Assembly (NCBI GenBank): GCA_023823795.1
Contig: CP085710.1
Span: forward strand, 3,746,001 to 3,810,000
Reading direction: 5' to 3'
Length of the DNA: 64,000 nt
From: Bacillus sp. F19
Lineage (GTDB): Bacteria > Bacillota > Bacilli > Bacillales > Bacillaceae
A program made the translations under genes and the position numbers. Every line of letters starts with the position of its first letter. Position 1 is the stretch's first letter. This document shows, one piece after another, positions 56,660 to 64,000 of the stretch. The notes under the pieces are model-generated. The model was not told the origin of the DNA and ran no database searches. It saw only the letters and a list, made by a program, of their open reading frames with translations.

Positions 56660-57216
56660 TTAATTTATTTTGTTAAAAATATCAAACATAGGAACTAGGA
56701 TAGAAGTCACTGCCACGCCGACAATTCCTGCCAGGAAAACTATCATTAAAGGTTCTATTAATGATTTGAGACGATCTGTAGACTATTCTACTTCTTCCTC
56801 ATAAAAATCAGCTACTTTTGACAGCATTTCATCCAGTGATCCTGTTTCTTCTCCAATGGCAATCATTTGAGTCACCAAAGGCGGAAATACCCTGTGATCC
56901 TTCATTGGCTCTGTCTTTAAATTTTCCTTTTTCCAGTGCATTTCTTGATTCCTTTAACACTCTGCTGATCACTTCGTTTTCAACGATATTCTCCACTATT
57001 GAAATAGCCTGCAGAATTGGAACGGAGCTTGAAAACAGCGAACTTAAGGTTCTCGTCATTCTTGCCAGCGCAGCTTTTTGCAGCATTTTTCCTAAAATAG
57101 GTGTTTTCAGAATGAAGAAATCCAAGTAATACTTAGTTGAAGGCTGGCTCTTCATGAATACCAGACCGATAGCGATTAATAGGATTCATAAAACGGGCAA
57201 GAATAAAAAGATCTTC
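56660..57216 (-). pseudogene. pilC (GspF-family) C-terminal half, disrupted
   Basis: Reading on the minus strand gives the second half of a type IV pilus inner-membrane platform protein: LLIAIGLVFMKSQPSTKYYLDFF, RMTRTLSSLFSSSVPILQAI, VFPPLVTQMIAIGEETGSL and MIVFLAGIVGVAVTSILVPMF. It contains an in-frame TGA in a membrane helix near 57190, a frameshift near 56905 and a TAG at 56785-56783. The natural C terminus is at 56660. It cannot be expressed. Confidence 0.8.
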
Positions 57217-57400
57217 ACCTCCATGTTCACCACATGGTAAAGGCCGGTGAAGCTGCAGGGAACATGGATGAAACACTTGACCGATTAGCCATACATTACG
57301 AAAAACAGTATAAAACCAGGCAGAAAATCATTTCGGCATTAGCCTATCCTGCAGTTGTCGGCATTGTGGCTATCGCGGCAGTGATTTTCTTATTGGCAGA
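57205..57400 (+). pseudogene. pilC (GspF-family) N-terminal fragment, inverted
   Basis: The plus strand encodes MVKAGEAAGNMDETLDRLA, YEKQYKTRQKIISALAYPAV and VGIVAIAAVIFLL, the end of the first GspF domain and first helix. This should precede the 56660-57216 half in one gene, but it lies on the opposite strand, head to head with it. Homology stops near 57393. The first third of PilC is not present in the window. Confidence 0.75.
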
Positions 57401-57597
57401 AGTCTTTTCGTTTTTCATCATCCTCCTCCTCGAATCTAATTTATCTACACATCGTAATGATACCTTCATTTAAAACGCAATCCAAAAAAAGCGCTCACTA
57501 TTTTAATTATGTAAGCCTGTATTTTTTAGGTTCCATTACATCTTTTAAAAAAGATAAGGGTTTTCCCCCGGAAGGATGGGGGAATTCCCTGATGTTG
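57401..57597. other. Junction between the pil remnants and the molybdoenzyme operon
   Basis: This AT-rich stretch contains no gene and no insertion-sequence ends or direct repeats that I can see. A GC-rich hairpin (CCCCC with GGGGG, about 57564-57583) lies near its right end. No convincing sigma-A promoter was found. Confidence 0.4.
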
Positions 57598-57671: not shown

Positions 57672-58754
57672 ATGCACGGAAAGTTAGAGTTCAAAGTGCA
57701 CGGCAAACAAACAATTACTAACGCGTTTGCTTCTAAATTCGCTAAATCCATGTTTATTTCTGTCATCTTTTTAACAGTCTTAGCTTTTGTTGGTTCAAGA
57801 ATGTTCACTCATATTGATTTGAACCTTTACGGCTATATGGTAGGCACGATTGTTTTTATCGGTGGTTTTTTCTACCGCTTTATTGCGTGGGGAGAGAGAC
57901 CTCCAACCAAGTTATTTATAAAAAAAGGAATCAAGCTGCTGTTTCGAAAATCAACACCAAAAACGTCCGTTGAACATCTCGGTACATACAATTTTATCTG
58001 GAATCGCGGGATCTATCGCTGGACACAGCATATCCTGATCGGCTGGGGCTGCATCCTATCCTGTTTTGTAACGTTTCCATTAGTATTCGGCTGGATGTAC
58101 TTCACGATGGAGGATAACGGGTATTACACCGTCGTTGGAATGGGAGTAAACCTAATGAAAGTAGAAGCAGATGGAATTATCGCTTTTTTCTTTTACAATG
58201 CCCTTAACTTCACAGCACTTATGGTAATTACTGGTGTATGTATGGCGTTATATCGCCGTTTGAAAAATATGCAGGCCCGGGCTGAACAAAAGTTTATCTA
58301 CGACTTCCTGCCGCTTTATCTTTTGTTGTTAATAAGCATTACCGGACTTTTATTAACTTTTTCTAATGTGTTTTTGCACGGATGGGGACACCCAGTTATG
58401 TCCTTGATCCATCAATACTCTGTAATCATTACCCTTATTTACTTGCCATTTGGAAAACTGGCGCATATTCCTTTCCGCCCGCTGAGCGTATTTGCCAGAA
58501 ATTATCGTGAGCATTACGCCGAGGTGGAAACAAAGAAATGCCGCGTTTGTGGTGATGGATTTGTTTCAACAGAACAATCAAACGATGTAATAGACGTACT
58601 TAGCGTGAACGATATCCGCTACGAAATGAAAGAGGGCTTCCATCTCGCAGAATTGTGTCTTCCTTGCCGAAGAAAATATCGAATCGCCCAATTTTCAGGT
58701 TTTCCTACTCATCAAGTAAAGGTCAAGGAGGCCAATCAAAATGCAAAGGGATAA
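57672..58754 (+). CDS. NarI-like membrane protein with C-terminal four-cysteine domain
   Basis: This 360-residue protein has about six hydrophobic helices with histidines in membrane contexts (YRWTQHILIGWGC, FLHGWGHPVMSLIHQYSVIITL, FGKLAHIPF). This suggests a b-type haem quinol dehydrogenase related to NarI and similar subunits. A cytoplasmic tail from about residue 285 carries CRVCGDGF and LCLPCRRKY, a possible zinc or Fe-S site. The start is ATG at 57672, after GAGGAGG. It overlaps the next gene by 14 bases. I infer that it passes quinol electrons to the molybdoenzyme. Confidence 0.65.
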   Translation: MHGKLEFKVHGKQTITNAFASKFAKSMFISVIFLTVLAFVGSRMFTHIDLNLYGYMVGTIVFIGGFFYRFIAWGERPPTKLFIKKGIKLLFRKSTPKTSVEHLGTYNFIWNRGIYRWTQHILIGWGCILSCFVTFPLVFGWMYFTMEDNGYYTVVGMGVNLMKVEADGIIAFFFYNALNFTALMVITGVCMALYRRLKNMQARAEQKFIYDFLPLYLLLLISITGLLLTFSNVFLHGWGHPVMSLIHQYSVIITLIYLPFGKLAHIPFRPLSVFARNYREHYAEVETKKCRVCGDGFVSTEQSNDVIDVLSVNDIRYEMKEGFHLAELCLPCRRKYRIAQFSGFPTHQVKVKEANQNAKG

Positions 58755-60909
58755 ATTCTTTAAAGAAATCGAGAATCTTGAACATCCGAATGAAAAACTT
58801 ATAAAAACACATTGCAGCTATTGTGGAATGCAATGCGGAATGAACTTAAGAGTAAATACTCTTACAAACAAAATCATCGGAGTAGAGCCGCGCTACGACT
58901 GGCCTGTTACTGTCGGTAAAATGTGTCCGAAAGGGGTAACGGCTTATCAGCAGACAAACCACAAAGATCGTCTTCTTCGGCCGCTGATCCGGGATGATGC
59001 ATCATTAAAAGGAACAAAAGAAGGTTTTCGGAAAGCCAGCTGGGATGAAGCGTATGATCTGATCGCAGAAAAATTTCTCGATATGCAGAAACACTATGGA
59101 ATAGACACACTTTCTGTCTTCAGCGGTGTTTCTATGACGAACGAAAAATGCTATCTAACTGGAAAATTTGCAAGGGTTGCCCTGGGTACCCGCTACATTG
59201 ATTACAATGGCCGTTTTTGTATGTCCAGTGCTGCAGGCGGATTTTTACGATCATTTGGGGTGGATAGAGGATCTACCCTTCCCTGGACGGATATTCATGA
59301 AACAGATTGTCTTTTTATAACAGGAAGCAATACAGCTGAATGCCATCCGACATCGATGTTCCGCGTTTGGGCGGTTCAAGAACGCGGCGGATATTTAATT
59401 GTTGCAGACCCAAGAGAGACTCCACTCGCTAGAAGAGCAGATGTTCATCTTGATCTGAAACCTGGAACCGACCTTGCGCTGGCAAATGGTATCCTGAATC
59501 TCCTTTTGGAAGGGAACTATGCGGATCAGGATTTTATCGAAAACCATACAAACGGTATTGAGGAAACAAGAGAACTTGTATCTGCATTCACACCGGAATA
59601 TACGAGTTTCATAACGGGAGTGGCACCCGAAAAAATAATCCGGGCAGCGGAAATTTACGGAAAATCACCGAATGCGATTGTCTTGTTTGCTCGAGGAATC
59701 GAACAGCAGCATAAGGGAGTCGATAACGTTTCAGCTTATGTCAACATGGCACTTGTGACAGGTAAAATCGGAAGACCTAAATCAGGTGTCGCTACCTTTA
59801 CAGGGCAAGGAAATGGTCAGGGAGGCAGAGAGCATGGCCAAAAATCTGATCTTCTGCCAGGATATCGAAAAATTACGAACCCAGAGCATGTAAAGGAAGT
59901 TTGCCAAGTTTGGGGTATCACACCAGAAGAAATGCCAAAACCAGGTGTTTCTGCTTATGAAATGTTTGAGCTCATGGATCAAAAAGAGATTCGAGGTTTA
60001 TATCTTCTTTGTTCAAACCCTGCTGTATCAGCGCCAAACTTAAATTTTGTAAGAAAAGCGATGAAGAATCTTGATTTTATGGTGTGCTCAGACTTTTATC
60101 TTTCTGAATCAGCGGAGTTTGCGGATGTAGTTTTGCCAGCTGTGACATGGTCTGAAGATGAAGGTACGGTTACAAACCTTGAGGGCCGCATCATTAAAAT
60201 CAATAAAGCGCAAGAACCGATCGGAGAATCAAAACCAGATTGGCAGATTCAAGTGGAACTTGCTGAACGTCTTGGAAAAGGAAAATACTTCTCACATCTG
60301 AAAACGGCAAGAGACGTAGCTGATGAATTTCGTCTTGCATCAAAAGGCGGATACGCAGATTATTACGGAGCAACATGGGATAAGATCGATGAACAAGATG
60401 GCGTCTTCTGGCCATGCAGAGATGAAAATGATAAAGGGACTCCCCACATGTTCCTGGATAAAAAATTCTATTATCCCGACGGAAAAGCCAAGATTTGTGC
60501 TCTTCCATACCGGCCGCCTGCAGAAGAACCGTGTAATGATTATCCGTTAAGACTGACAACAGGGCGTGTTGTATACCACTATCTTTCAGGTAACCAGACA
60601 AGACGGATTCCTTTTCTGCATGATATGTGCCCTGAACCTTTTGTGGAGGTCCATCCAGAAACAGCGAAAGAATACCACATTGAACATGAAGAAACGGTAA
60701 GGCTTTATACAAGACGAGGCTCTGGACATTATAAGGTGAAGATTACGGAAGCCATTCGGGAAGATACTGTTTTTGTTCCTTACCACTTTGGGCATGAGGA
60801 ATCTATCAATCTGCTAACGATCGCAGCACTTGATCCTATTTCTAAAATGCCAGAGTTTAAAGCCTGCGCGGCTCAGATTGAGAAAATAGAAATGAAGAAG
60901 GTGCAATAA
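58741..60909 (+). CDS. Molybdopterin oxidoreductase, NasC/NapA-class (probable nitrate reductase catalytic subunit)
   Basis: This 722-residue bis-MGD enzyme has an N-terminal [4Fe-4S] site (Cys25, Cys28, Cys32, Cys62, in HCSYCGMQCG and GKMCPKG). The molybdenum ligand is probably Cys160 in NGRFCMSSAAGG, the arrangement seen in assimilatory and periplasmic nitrate reductases. The motifs GSNTAECHPT, GQGNGQGGREHG and the C-terminal molydop-binding domain (RLTTGRVVYHYLSGNQTRR) are present. It has no signal peptide, so it is cytoplasmic. Substrate is inferred as nitrate from the ligand context and the NarK-like gene downstream; formate dehydrogenase-like alternatives are not excluded. Confidence 0.85.
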   Translation: MQRDKFFKEIENLEHPNEKLIKTHCSYCGMQCGMNLRVNTLTNKIIGVEPRYDWPVTVGKMCPKGVTAYQQTNHKDRLLRPLIRDDASLKGTKEGFRKASWDEAYDLIAEKFLDMQKHYGIDTLSVFSGVSMTNEKCYLTGKFARVALGTRYIDYNGRFCMSSAAGGFLRSFGVDRGSTLPWTDIHETDCLFITGSNTAECHPTSMFRVWAVQERGGYLIVADPRETPLARRADVHLDLKPGTDLALANGILNLLLEGNYADQDFIENHTNGIEETRELVSAFTPEYTSFITGVAPEKIIRAAEIYGKSPNAIVLFARGIEQQHKGVDNVSAYVNMALVTGKIGRPKSGVATFTGQGNGQGGREHGQKSDLLPGYRKITNPEHVKEVCQVWGITPEEMPKPGVSAYEMFELMDQKEIRGLYLLCSNPAVSAPNLNFVRKAMKNLDFMVCSDFYLSESAEFADVVLPAVTWSEDEGTVTNLEGRIIKINKAQEPIGESKPDWQIQVELAERLGKGKYFSHLKTARDVADEFRLASKGGYADYYGATWDKIDEQDGVFWPCRDENDKGTPHMFLDKKFYYPDGKAKICALPYRPPAEEPCNDYPLRLTTGRVVYHYLSGNQTRRIPFLHDMCPEPFVEVHPETAKEYHIEHEETVRLYTRRGSGHYKVKITEAIREDTVFVPYHFGHEESINLLTIAALDPISKMPEFKACAAQIEKIEMKKVQ

Positions 60910-61470
60910 ATGAAAAAGCGATTGTATCTGGAGCTTGAAAACTGTATCGGCTGCCGCTCCTGTCTTGCTGCTTGTACGCAGTGCGGTGGGCATGAGGAAA
61001 GAAACCGCAACTACGTTTATGACGTGAACCCGCTCGTTAACCGTCAAACCATGCCGCTGATGTGTTTGCACTGTGTGAATCCTGCTTGTGCGAGAAGCTG
61101 TCCTGCCCAGGCAATTCAAATTCACGAAACGGGTGCAGTACTGTCAGCGCTAGTAGAGAAGTGTATTGGATGTCAAAACTGTACGATTGCTTGTCCGTAC
61201 GGCATTCCAAAGTTTGATACGGAACAAAATCTTATGTATAAATGCGACCTCTGTATCGATCGTACAAAGGATGGTATTCCGCCAATGTGTGCGAGTGTTT
61301 GTCCTTCTAATACTTTACAGTGGCTGACTGATGAGGAGATCGAACAAAAGAAACAGCAGTTTAACCTGGATAACGGAAAATGGGTAACGAGTATGCCTTA
61401 TCTTGAAAATGAAACGAATGTAAAAATAAATCTCCCTGGTATTCTGCAGGGTGTCAAAAAGCTTTTTTAG
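60910..61470 (+). CDS. Four-cluster ferredoxin subunit (DmsB/NrfC-like)
   Basis: This 186-residue protein has four cysteine groups: CIGCRSCLAAC, CLHCVNPACARSCP, CIGCQNCTIACP and CDLC...MCASVCP. It should hold four [4Fe-4S] clusters, forming an electron wire between the membrane subunit and the catalytic subunit. It starts immediately after the stop of the molybdoenzyme gene, with an AAGAAGG site inside that gene. No signal peptide is present, so it is cytoplasmic. Confidence 0.88.
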   Translation: MKKRLYLELENCIGCRSCLAACTQCGGHEERNRNYVYDVNPLVNRQTMPLMCLHCVNPACARSCPAQAIQIHETGAVLSALVEKCIGCQNCTIACPYGIPKFDTEQNLMYKCDLCIDRTKDGIPPMCASVCPSNTLQWLTDEEIEQKKQQFNLDNGKWVTSMPYLENETNVKINLPGILQGVKKLF

Positions 61471-61482
61471 GGGTGTGAGATC

Positions 61483-62007
61483 ATGACAGACCAAAATAAT
61501 AAAATTCCTTTTAAGGAAGAGAATTATACCCATAATATCGACCGTAATGGTGAGAGAACACTTGACCGCAGAGGGTTCATGAAAACTCTTGTTGGTGCTG
61601 CAGGGCTGTTTGCCGTTTCTTCCTTGCCTTGGGGAGCGGTAGCTGCAAAGGAACTGATGAAACTAGGAGACAAAGAATATCCGAAAACAAAGATTGCAGA
61701 TGTAAAAGATATCGCTGTTGGAGATTCAGTAGACTTTAGCTTTCCTTCTGAGCATGACAGCGCAATTCTTATTCGTTTGAGTGAGAAAAAATATGTAGCT
61801 TTTCAAAACGCATGCACCCATCTTCGCTGTCCAGTTTTTTGGAAAAAGGAAGAAGGAGAAATGATCTGTCCTTGTCATCATGGGAAGTTTGATGCTCACA
61901 CTGGTGCACCTACTGCAGGGCCGCCGCGCCGACCGCTTCCTGAAATTACATTGAAGATCGAAAATGGCTCAATCTATGCGGTAAGGGTGAAACGTTATGA
62001 AGCGTAG
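61483..62007 (+). CDS. Rieske [2Fe-2S] protein with Tat signal
   Basis: This 174-residue protein has a Tat motif RRGFMK near residue 29 followed by a hydrophobic segment (TLVGAAGLFAVSSLPWGAVAA). It is therefore probably exported and anchored outside. The Rieske site is CTHLRCP...CPCHHGKFD (Cys-X-His and Cys-X2-His), and a GPPRRPL segment follows. The last residues overlap the next gene by 11 bases. A Rieske subunit is not a usual partner of NasC or Nar enzymes. Confidence 0.9.
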   Translation: MTDQNNKIPFKEENYTHNIDRNGERTLDRRGFMKTLVGAAGLFAVSSLPWGAVAAKELMKLGDKEYPKTKIADVKDIAVGDSVDFSFPSEHDSAILIRLSEKKYVAFQNACTHLRCPVFWKKEEGEMICPCHHGKFDAHTGAPTAGPPRRPLPEITLKIENGSIYAVRVKRYEA

Positions 62008-62194
62008 CTGGATCGGTGTCATTTTATTATGTTGCATCTTAATGATGAATATCGTGTTTACTCAATTTTTGGTTCACCAATTTTATTATGAAAACTATGA
62101 GAGAACCATTCTTTATACGTGTATCAACCTTCTGTTATTTCCTGTAGCTCTCTTTATCTATAAAAATGAAAAACGGAAAGGCGGTTCAAAATGA
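61997..62194 (+). CDS. Small two-helix membrane protein, unknown function
   Basis: This 65-residue protein has two hydrophobic helices (WIGVILLCCILMMNIVFTQFLV and TILYTCINLLLFPVALFIY) and a basic C terminus (KNEKRKGGSK). It overlaps the Rieske gene by 11 bases and the next gene by 4 bases, so it is translationally coupled. No family was recognised. It may be an assembly or structural subunit of the membrane complex. Confidence 0.75.
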   Translation: MKRSWIGVILLCCILMMNIVFTQFLVHQFYYENYERTILYTCINLLLFPVALFIYKNEKRKGGSK

Positions 62195-62508
62195 AAATGA
62201 ATAATGAAACGCTGATCGATTTTTGTTTTATCCGCAGTATATGTGAAGGCTTTAAAAAAGAGGTTGATGAACTGCTTCAGTCCTTGTTTATGGAACATCA
62301 TCTTTATTGGTATCTGGACGAAAGACAAGATGCTGGTGCAGTTATCATTGTCGCTGAACTGCGCGGAATGAGTATGTGGGAATCAGAAGAGGAAGTTTTA
62401 AACTTTTTAGAGAAGCGAGGGACCTCTCAATTTTGGGAGTACCTCCAAGGATATCAAATTCAAGTTTTCTCTGATAAGAAGGGTTGTGGAAGCTGTGGAA
62501 GCCGTTAA
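62191..62508 (+). CDS. Hypothetical acidic protein with CGSCGS tail
   Basis: This 105-residue soluble protein overlaps the preceding gene by the ATGA junction. It ends in KKGCGSCGSR, a Cys-X2-Cys pair at the extreme C terminus. The core is acidic and helical with several tryptophans and tyrosines. I do not recognise it; the context suggests a chaperone or maturation factor for the molybdoenzyme, like NapD or NarJ by role but not by sequence. Confidence 0.7.
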   Translation: MKMNNETLIDFCFIRSICEGFKKEVDELLQSLFMEHHLYWYLDERQDAGAVIIVAELRGMSMWESEEEVLNFLEKRGTSQFWEYLQGYQIQVFSDKKGCGSCGSR

Positions 62509-62770
62509 CATAACAGCACTCGAACGGTTTAAATCGGGGGTAGTTTCTGTGGTGGTGCATGGTGAACAGGGTGAGGAAACACCTCCATCACTGACTAAAA
62601 CAATTAAAAGACTTCAAAAATGCCCTGATCAAACACACCTTCGAATTTATTTTGATGCGGTTAATTTTCTTGCCGTTCCTTTAACTTCTGATGTGAAATG
62701 GACAGAAAAAGTCTGGACTGCCTACGACAAAGACTGCATACTTTATTACGTAATTAAAAAGGAGAGCTAA
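62486..62770 (+). CDS. Hypothetical 94-residue protein
   Basis: This small soluble protein overlaps the end of the previous gene by 23 bases (GTG start at 62486) or 14 bases (GTG at 62495). The AAGGG site favours neither clearly. No motif was recognised. It is followed 2 bases later by the transporter gene, so it belongs to the operon. Confidence 0.6.
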   Translation: MEAVEAVNITALERFKSGVVSVVVHGEQGEETPPSLTKTIKRLQKCPDQTHLRIYFDAVNFLAVPLTSDVKWTEKVWTAYDKDCILYYVIKKES

Positions 62771-62772
62771 TC

Positions 62773-64000
62773 ATGAATAAAAACATTCAGCTGCCGCTCC
62801 AAACCTTAAATCTAGTGGCAGGATTTATGGTATGGGTATTGATATCATCTTTGCTGCCATTTATTAAAGAAGACATCTCGATTCCTGCTAGCCAGCTTGC
62901 TATGGTAACCGCTATACCGGTTGTTTTGGGGTCTCTTCTAAGGATTCCTCTGGGTTACATGGCTAACCTTTTTGGAGCAAGAAAGATTTTTATGTTCAGT
63001 TTTATCCTTTTGCTTTTTCCCGTTTATTACCTTAGTGAAGCGAACTCTATTACTGATTTATTGATCGGAGGATTATTCCTTGGCATAGGTGGAGCGGTGT
63101 TTTCAGTAGGTGTAACATCCCTTCCAAAATATTATGGAAAAGAAAAGCATGGATTCGTTAACGGAGTATACGGTGCAGGAAACCTTGGTACGGCCATCAC
63201 GGCATTTTCCGCTCCGGTTGTTGCCATGCAGCTGGGCTGGTCTGTAACGATGAAGCTTTATCTTGTCCTATTAGGCGTCTTTATACTATTAAACTTTGTT
63301 TTTGGTGATAAAACAGAAAGAAAAGTGGCAACTCCATTAATGGAACAGATTAAAGGTGTTTATAAGAATGAGAGAATGTGGCTTTTCTGCTTATTTTATT
63401 TCATTACATTTGGTTCATTTGTAGCTTTTACAATCTATCTTCCTAACTTTCTCGTAGCGAACTTCGGGCTAGAAAAGGTGGATGCAGGTCTCCGGACAGC
63501 GGGCTTTATCGTAGTAGCAACTGTTATGAGGCCAGTAGGGGGATGGTTGGCGGACCGGTTTAACTCACTCGTTTTATTGATGGGCGTATTTTTTGGATTT
63601 ACCGTTTCTGCAATCTTGCTTTCTTTTGCTCCATCCATTCAGTTATATACAGTCGGCTGTTTAACTATCGCATTTTGTGCGGGCATGGGAAATGGTGTAA
63701 TTTTCAAACTTGTGCCGATGTACTTTCAGAAACAGGCAGGTATTGTAAATGGTATCGTATCAGCGATGGGCGGTCTTGGAGGCTTCTTTCCGCCGCTATT
63801 ATTAGCGATCATCTATAATATTACAGGGCAGTATGCGATCGGCTTTATGGCTCTTTCACAGGTTGCACTTGCAAGTCTCGTGCTTGTGATATGGATGTAT
63901 TATCATGATAAGCTGAGCTTGTCTAATCAGATTATCAAAAATACAGGCGAGGGGATTATGGTTACCGATACAAACCAAAAGATCATCTCAGTCAACAAAG
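62773..64000 (+). CDS. NarK-like nitrate/nitrite transporter (MFS) fused to a PAS domain, cut by window edge
   Basis: The first 385 or so codons form a 12-helix MFS transporter of the NarK/NasA type, with the glycine-rich signatures GIGGAVFSVGV and GVYGAGNLG in helix 5 and FCAGMGNGVIF in the second half. After the last helix (LASLVLVIWMYYHD) the frame continues without a stop to 64000. It reads IIKNTGEGIMVTDTNQKIISVNK, the start of a PAS domain. The remaining domains lie beyond the window. The start is ATG at 62773, after GGAGAG. It probably couples nitrate transport or sensing to a signalling output. Confidence 0.85.
   Translation, partial: MNKNIQLPLQTLNLVAGFMVWVLISSLLPFIKEDISIPASQLAMVTAIPVVLGSLLRIPLGYMANLFGARKIFMFSFILLLFPVYYLSEANSITDLLIGGLFLGIGGAVFSVGVTSLPKYYGKEKHGFVNGVYGAGNLGTAITAFSAPVVAMQLGWSVTMKLYLVLLGVFILLNFVFGDKTERKVATPLMEQIKGVYKNERMWLFCLFYFITFGSFVAFTIYLPNFLVANFGLEKVDAGLRTAGFIVVATVMRPVGGWLADRFNSLVLLMGVFFGFTVSAILLSFAPSIQLYTVGCLTIAFCAGMGNGVIFKLVPMYFQKQAGIVNGIVSAMGGLGGFFPPLLLAIIYNITGQYAIGFMALSQVALASLVLVIWMYYHDKLSLSNQIIKNTGEGIMVTDTNQKIISVNK

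Follow-up and report, generated by a model that had tools for sequence, protein, structure and literature searches.

A recurrent fusion of a NarK-like transporter with a PAS domain in Bacilli: a possible built-in switch of nitrate uptake

That oxygen or redox state inhibits respiratory nitrate uptake is described as a general phenomenon without a mechanistic explanation in the accessible part of an earlier paper (PMC3445494). A 2023 review reports, in its accessible sections, that many domains are fused to MFS transporters without a known function, and MFS–PAS fusions are already in print there as a class, with reference to the survey of Willson et al. 2019 (PMC10710835). Like LacS-EIIA, MFS-CBS, and MFS-PAS proteins, MFS transporters that end in a regulatory domain, the protein described here, hereafter NarK-PAS, carries its soluble domain at the C terminus. 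In UhpC-UhpB and in the SLC5-STAC kinases (CbrA), a transporter is likewise coupled to PAS or kinase modules, according to the available text of PMC7096432; NarK-PAS differs from both by the NarK kind of its MFS part, its lone PAS, and the lack of an output domain. The staphylococcal NreABC-NarT system unites, as does the operon under study, a GAF protein, a HisKA_3 kinase, a NarL-type regulator, and a NarK transporter in one operon, whereas the operon under study has a kinase core without the NreB input domain, an additional PAS kinase, and a PAS on its transporter, which is lacking in the relatives that appear to be staphylococcal. Although the MFS–PAS class is known, no description of this NarK fusion was found in the literature searched, where subscription papers were mostly absent. 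For two Bacillus species, a 2012 paper gives narK genes that are 1500 and 1503 nt long, which by their matching gene length we infer to be NarK-PAS; the word PAS is absent from its accessible portion (PMC3475470).

The window, that is, the whole 64,000-nucleotide stretch analyzed (C1:3746001-3810000 of the source genome, G000), ends within the gene, the ORF 62773..63999 running to the window end with no stop. In L002, a genome stretch extending past the window (window position = L002 position + 57000), the same frame closes with a TAA corresponding to 64276-64278 in window numbering, 278 nt beyond the window. Pfam detected MFS_1 at residues 16-339 (E = 1.1e-40) and PAS_9 at residues 393-495 (E = 1e-18, 67.9 bits against a cut-off of 27), the latter nearly complete (positions 2-103 of the 103 in the profile); 12 helices could not be distinguished in a crude hydropathy scan, which was left out of account. 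The in-frame NarK-like/PAS fusion proposed in the initial annotation was thus confirmed as one frame of 501 aa with a complete PAS domain. Its placement in the operon of a nitrate-reductase-like molybdoenzyme was also borne out (Table 1), and in 113 of the 130 cases collected the same architecture has a molybdoenzyme or narGH-type gene no more than 7.5 kb away. The output domain that had been thought probable beyond the PAS is absent: with the gene read to its stop, Pfam detected no GGDEF, EAL, or HisKA domain past the window, and only 6 residues follow the PAS match. Because the 501-aa chain bears no output domain, NarK-PAS is not the one-piece transporter-receptor that had been envisaged, an arrangement of the CbrA type. 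A stop codon soon after position 64000, taken beforehand as a sign against the fusion, does occur to the letter, but in substance it comes after the PAS is already complete. Nor is the PAS a segment of a separate gene brought in by a frameshift, the frame being single and the join the same in 130 distinct proteins. These relatives refute an assembly error, a frameshift, or a chance run-on of two genes, to which we assign a vanishingly small probability given also the complete PAS profile and the low dN/dS.

Table 1. Features of the window and of its continuation in L002 (coordinates prefixed L002 refer to that stretch)
Feature	Position	Strand	Remarks
Palindrome GGGTTTTCCC	57558..57567	.	one of two tandem palindromes preceding the operon
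Palindrome GGGAATTCCC	57580..57589	.	its partner, 22 bp further along
Cytochrome-b-like membrane subunit	57672..58754	+	matches QmoC/TmcC weakly; start probably the ATG at 57672, after aggagg
Molybdopterin oxidoreductase, 722 aa	58741..60909	+	closest to NasC among NCBIfam models (859.6 bits; cut-off 1100)
4Fe-4S electron-transfer subunit	60910..61470	+	DmsB-like, below cut-off
Rieske protein	61483..62007	+	N-terminal DRRGFMK resembles a Tat signal (by eye)
Small protein U105, 105 aa	62191..62508	+	no family match; same position in related operons
Small protein U94, 94 aa	62486..62770	+	no Pfam match; same position in related operons
NarK-like MFS transporter + PAS fusion	62773..64000	+	codons 1-409 of 501; gene end at the equivalent of 64278
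Arg57	62941..62943	+	130/130 NarK-PAS; aligned with the LLRVP arginine of E. coli NarK/NarU chains
Arg253	63529..63531	+	130/130 NarK-PAS; second of two arginines, by alignment
TM12 + linker, codons 354-390	63832..63942	+	continuous helix in the model of ortholog L124 (identical residue numbering)
PAS domain, first 17 codons	63949..64000	+	residues 393-495; remainder beyond the window
NarK-PAS, complete gene	L002:5773-7278		single frame, 501 aa
Sensor-less HisKA_3/HATPase kinase core, 238 aa	L002:7287-8003		8 bp downstream of NarK-PAS; without input domain
NarL/LuxR-type regulator	L002:7975-8631		downstream of the kinase core
NreA-like GAF protein	L002:8621-9148		
PAS-PAS-HisKA_3 kinase (second kinase)	L002:9057-10838		

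The fusion had been presented as having no known characterized example, and it is no rarity among the genomes sampled. By hand counts of matches extending to residue 493 or beyond, 66 of 397 genomes drawn from the order and 64 of 398 from the class (plus two partial) carried it, as did 10 of 81 in the family, one of eight in the genus (E <= 1e-60), and 7 of 398 from the phylum, all inside the class (E limit 1e-90); these prevalences are rough, as the samples overlap, few candidates were scored per genome (three in the large draws), and a few counted matches containing a stop codon, which may mark the natural end of the gene or a broken copy, were left in. The relatives spread through Cytobacillus, Metabacillus, Peribacillus, Paenibacillus, Sporosarcina, Planococcus, Halobacillus, Shouchella, Fictibacillus, and other genera, the class being Bacilli, and one record of a plasmid collection carries a relative (Niallia taxi, 61.9%). 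One locus titled 'Pseudomonas sp. ISL-84' (L134, JAGGRA010000012.1) holds this Bacilli operon in a Cytobacillus-like form, and its name is probably wrong.

After exact duplicates, hits below 150 bits, and hits spanning 300 residues or fewer were dropped, 162 loci yielded 130 distinct NarK-PAS and 28 PAS-less NarK proteins, a ratio that is no measure of prevalence since the set was chosen partly for full length. The PAS-less relatives retain 57-73% identity. In a careful tree of 77 NarK domains, with the PAS excluded, PAS presence changes at least nine times, of which starred branches force at least seven; in a quick tree of all 158 NarK domains the corresponding minima are seven and four. Two PAS-less groups (g2 and f56) are nested among PAS-bearing ones and look like Bacillus sensu stricto and Staphylococcus (nre-narT layout), respectively. 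Because the join is identical in all 130 proteins, a single gain of the PAS followed by repeated losses offers the simplest reading, and the domain was probably lost several times. A tblastn search for PAS remnants downstream of the 28 PAS-less genes returned one hit, confined to the end of TM12, and the PAS-less L112 protein ends, by eye, in an apparent remnant of the PAS opening. These probable losses, together with four PAS-less relatives occurring in the same nreABC-like layout, indicate that the PAS is dispensable.

The transporter half is like the NarK/NarU structures (4u4t, 4jr9, and 4iu8) in fold, in its aligned arginines, and in having TIGR00886 as best NCBIfam hit; it differs by the extra C-terminal PAS and by a TIGR00886 score below the cut-off (213.6 against 311.7 bits), for which reason we call it NarK-like. 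Arg57 and Arg253, which we take to be the substrate arginines of NarK-type transporters, are invariant, and this conservation, combined with the first Foldseek rank of NarK 4u4w (TMt 0.71), suggests a working transporter rather than a dead receptor. VIA-align of the same model gave NarK a Z of 37.5, below several other MFS structures (up to 41.9). The model in question is an AlphaFold2 prediction for the ortholog L124, 76% identical to the G000 protein, built from 55 sequences (mean pLDDT 83.3, pTM 0.74, block pLDDT 81-90 over residues 351-400). In it, a single helix at residues 354-390 is predicted to carry TM12 into the PAS strand at 394-398; the model represents one ligand-free chain of an ortholog, so that the true PAS orientation may differ, and the PAS fold is assigned by sequence alone, the VIA-align rows spanning about residues 1-384. 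The span 341-398 measures 58 residues in all 130 distinct proteins, and the linker at 379-392 is free in its letters (mean top-residue frequency 0.50 vs 0.79 in MFS residues 5-361 and 0.68 in the PAS). Such a fixed length with variable letters is as expected for a mechanical join.

The nearest solved counterparts of the PAS are the FAD-PAS domains of MmoS, NifL, and Aer, the closest PDB relatives being MmoS 3ewk (1e-26) and NifL 2gj3 (2.2e-19). Pocket positions were matched by hand, with the roles of MmoS and Aer residues taken from the accessible part of PMC9668731. The flavin-site Asn and Trp are both found in NarK-PAS, as Asn459 (aligned with MmoS N164 and Aer N85) and Trp444 (aligned with Aer W70, placed by eye via the MmoS alignment), and these, as well as Thr398 (aligned with MmoS T103), are present in 130 of 130 proteins. 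The position of MmoS Gly107 is Gly in 121 of 130 and Gln in G000 itself. NarK-PAS differs from the FAD-PAS domains in being mounted on a transporter and at two further pocket positions, where MmoS His132 is replaced by Pro (Pro427; 128 of 130) and MmoS Arg195 by Phe (Phe490; 122 of 130), two residues that the same source, as far as accessible, describes as somewhat uncommon among flavin PAS domains. From this residue pattern, flavin binding by the PAS appears plausible.

We tentatively propose, at slightly less than even confidence, that NarK-PAS is a nitrate/nitrite transporter of the NarK type, controlled in cis by the cytoplasmic PAS that it carries, which would read redox through a flavin. 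Since TM12 runs unbroken into the PAS in the predicted model, a change in the state of the PAS could push or twist TM12, and this movement would promote or arrest the transport cycle. What the PAS senses would most likely be redox or respiratory state, with FAD as the presumed cofactor, because the PAS is nearest to the FAD-PAS domains of MmoS and NifL. Under oxidizing conditions the PAS might hold the transporter shut, in which case nitrate would reach the cytoplasmic molybdoenzyme only once oxygen respiration fails, while transcription would be set separately by the downstream Nre-like genes. The retention of the PAS alongside varied partners counts in favor of gating in cis, as do the constant linker length, the predicted continuous helix, the invariant arginines, the occurrence of the kinase core without NarK-PAS, and the purifying selection on the PAS, whose dN/dS has a median of 0.065 and a maximum of 0.159 in 64 pairs. 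This dN/dS is about twice that of the MFS part (median 0.030), which weighs against the gating reading, and so do the dispensability of the PAS, the two replaced pocket residues, and the continued transport of CbrA with its kinase domains altered or removed, as given in the accessible part of PMC7096432. Redox inhibition has also been reported for NarK2 in a paper whose accessible text does not contain the word PAS (PMC3445494), so other routes of redox control probably exist.

PAS domains often dimerize. A second way to read the conserved fusion is that the PAS binds no signal and serves as a dimerization or docking domain, pairing transporters or keeping the reductase near its nitrate supply. 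The reductase-type genes within 7.5 kb of 113 of the 130 genes and the absence of two MmoS flavin residues from the pocket would fit such a role, but the invariance of Asn459, Trp444, and Thr398 argues against it, and docking would presumably have no need of a constant linker length; on balance we judge it improbable. As for cis gating, its most specific form, a built-in redox gate in which a flavin PAS on the TM12 end closes the transporter during oxygen respiration, seems to us rather doubtful. If true, it would provide in Bacilli a direct molecular answer to oxygen's stop on nitrate uptake and a clear example of an MFS transporter controlled post-translationally through a fused domain, and B. 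subtilis NarK and staphylococcal NarT would come from lineages that lost the gate. The PAS-less relatives constitute natural controls, which brings the question within reach of a domain deletion in a single laboratory strain.

The gene following NarK-PAS raises a third possibility. Among the 130 NarK-PAS genes, 34 have the kinase core downstream, 45 follow an NreB-sized kinase in an nreABC-like layout, nine have another kinase, and 42 have no kinase seen within 7.5 kb, some neighborhoods being clipped by contig ends or short flanks. The core was downstream in 33 of 43 window-type operons with NarK-PAS and within 60 bp in 24 of 34 measured cases, and of 35 aligned cores, which have no sensor domain, at least 95% preserve the phospho-acceptor His and the motifs of the ATP site. 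A PAS followed by a kinase core would correspond to an ordinary PAS kinase split in two; the transporter PAS could accordingly be the absent sensor of the 238-aa core, signaling to the NarL-type regulator in a UhpC-UhpB-like manner and conveying nitrate transport or redox state as input. Against this stands the distribution of the two partners. The closest relatives of the core, sought in 299 genomes, were found in ten others at 41-47%, and in six of the resulting 11 genomes the core has no NarK-PAS in its operon, the other four having an adjacent one. Four of the six (L226, L227, L229, and L230) carry instead a PAS-less NarK, 24-26% identical (two of the four Pfam-checked), and two (L228 and L231) have the core operon without any transporter, yet all six retain the core, the regulator, the GAF protein, and the second kinase. 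The PAS is kept without the core in ten of the 43 operons, although six of these ten have another kinase nearby, which in one of them (L127) has a PAS of its own. The 42 genes with no kinase seen within 7.5 kb tell against a split receptor as well, and no single-chain transporter-PAS-kinase occurred among the matches listed from the 299 genomes, the longest open frame being 639 aa. Identity of the PAS to that of G000 was 65.5% in operons with the core (32 proteins) vs 64.5% without it (8 proteins). Since each is found without the other, the PAS is disfavored as the required sensor of the kinase, with room left for an optional contact; a transporter-receptor feeding the kinase core is not favored, and we consider the split arrangement unlikely.

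The four regulatory genes downstream of NarK-PAS include their own candidate sensor. In the second kinase, the PAS pair matches MmoS at 1.7e-52, and because the first PAS keeps the five MmoS pocket residues T103, G107, H132, N164, and R195 (by alignment, numbering by hand), this protein is a good candidate for a redox sensor. The GAF protein scored 82.4 bits with NF038250, against a cut-off of 175, and matched PDB NreA 4pau at E = 1.1e-18, keeping the Tyr that reads Ala in chain 6izk. The NreB input domain with its four cysteines is absent from the 238-aa core; a CxxC..CxxC motif was present in 52 of 62 kinases of 331-419 aa among the loci gathered to that point. At one locus (L218, in G590), the core-regulator-GAF-kinase set lies between two different NarK-PAS genes, with no reductase gene seen nearby.

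Upstream, the complex encoded at 57672-62007 (cytochrome b, NasC-like, Fe-S, and Tat-type Rieske subunits) falls short of the cut-off for each NCBIfam model it matched. No Tat signal was seen by eye on the molybdopterin oxidoreductase, and the NarG matches present in the source genome were none of them above cut-off. The complex may be a nitrate reductase that is linked to quinol and as yet unclassified. Another related set occurs near NarK genes at L063, L086, L091, L093, L112, L219, and L220, with a large subunit at 55-63% where a value was given. The ORFs of U105 and U94 overlap (62191-62770), and the two may, as a guess, be molybdoenzyme assembly proteins.

In the region preceding the operon, an FNR box with at most one mismatch was not found between 57150 and 57672; across the whole window such boxes gave six matches vs a mean of 2.06 expected. 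The two palindromes there recur in related operons. The strict GGG-N4-CCC pattern was present in 18 of 45 related upstream regions vs 2.3% of random stretches, the relaxed GGG-N4-6-CCC pattern in 40 of 43 vs 6.1%, and the tandem pair in 21 of 43 vs 1.0% (4300 random stretches from the same loci for the last two), the regions not being independent because the genomes are related. The palindromes are likely a site of the NarL-type regulator. Directly upstream of the operon, at 56832-57449, lie two type II secretion F-like gene pieces on opposite strands, the first just below the Pfam cut-off; they represent a broken gene bordering what could be an inserted operon, NarK-PAS being present in one of eight genomes of the genus.
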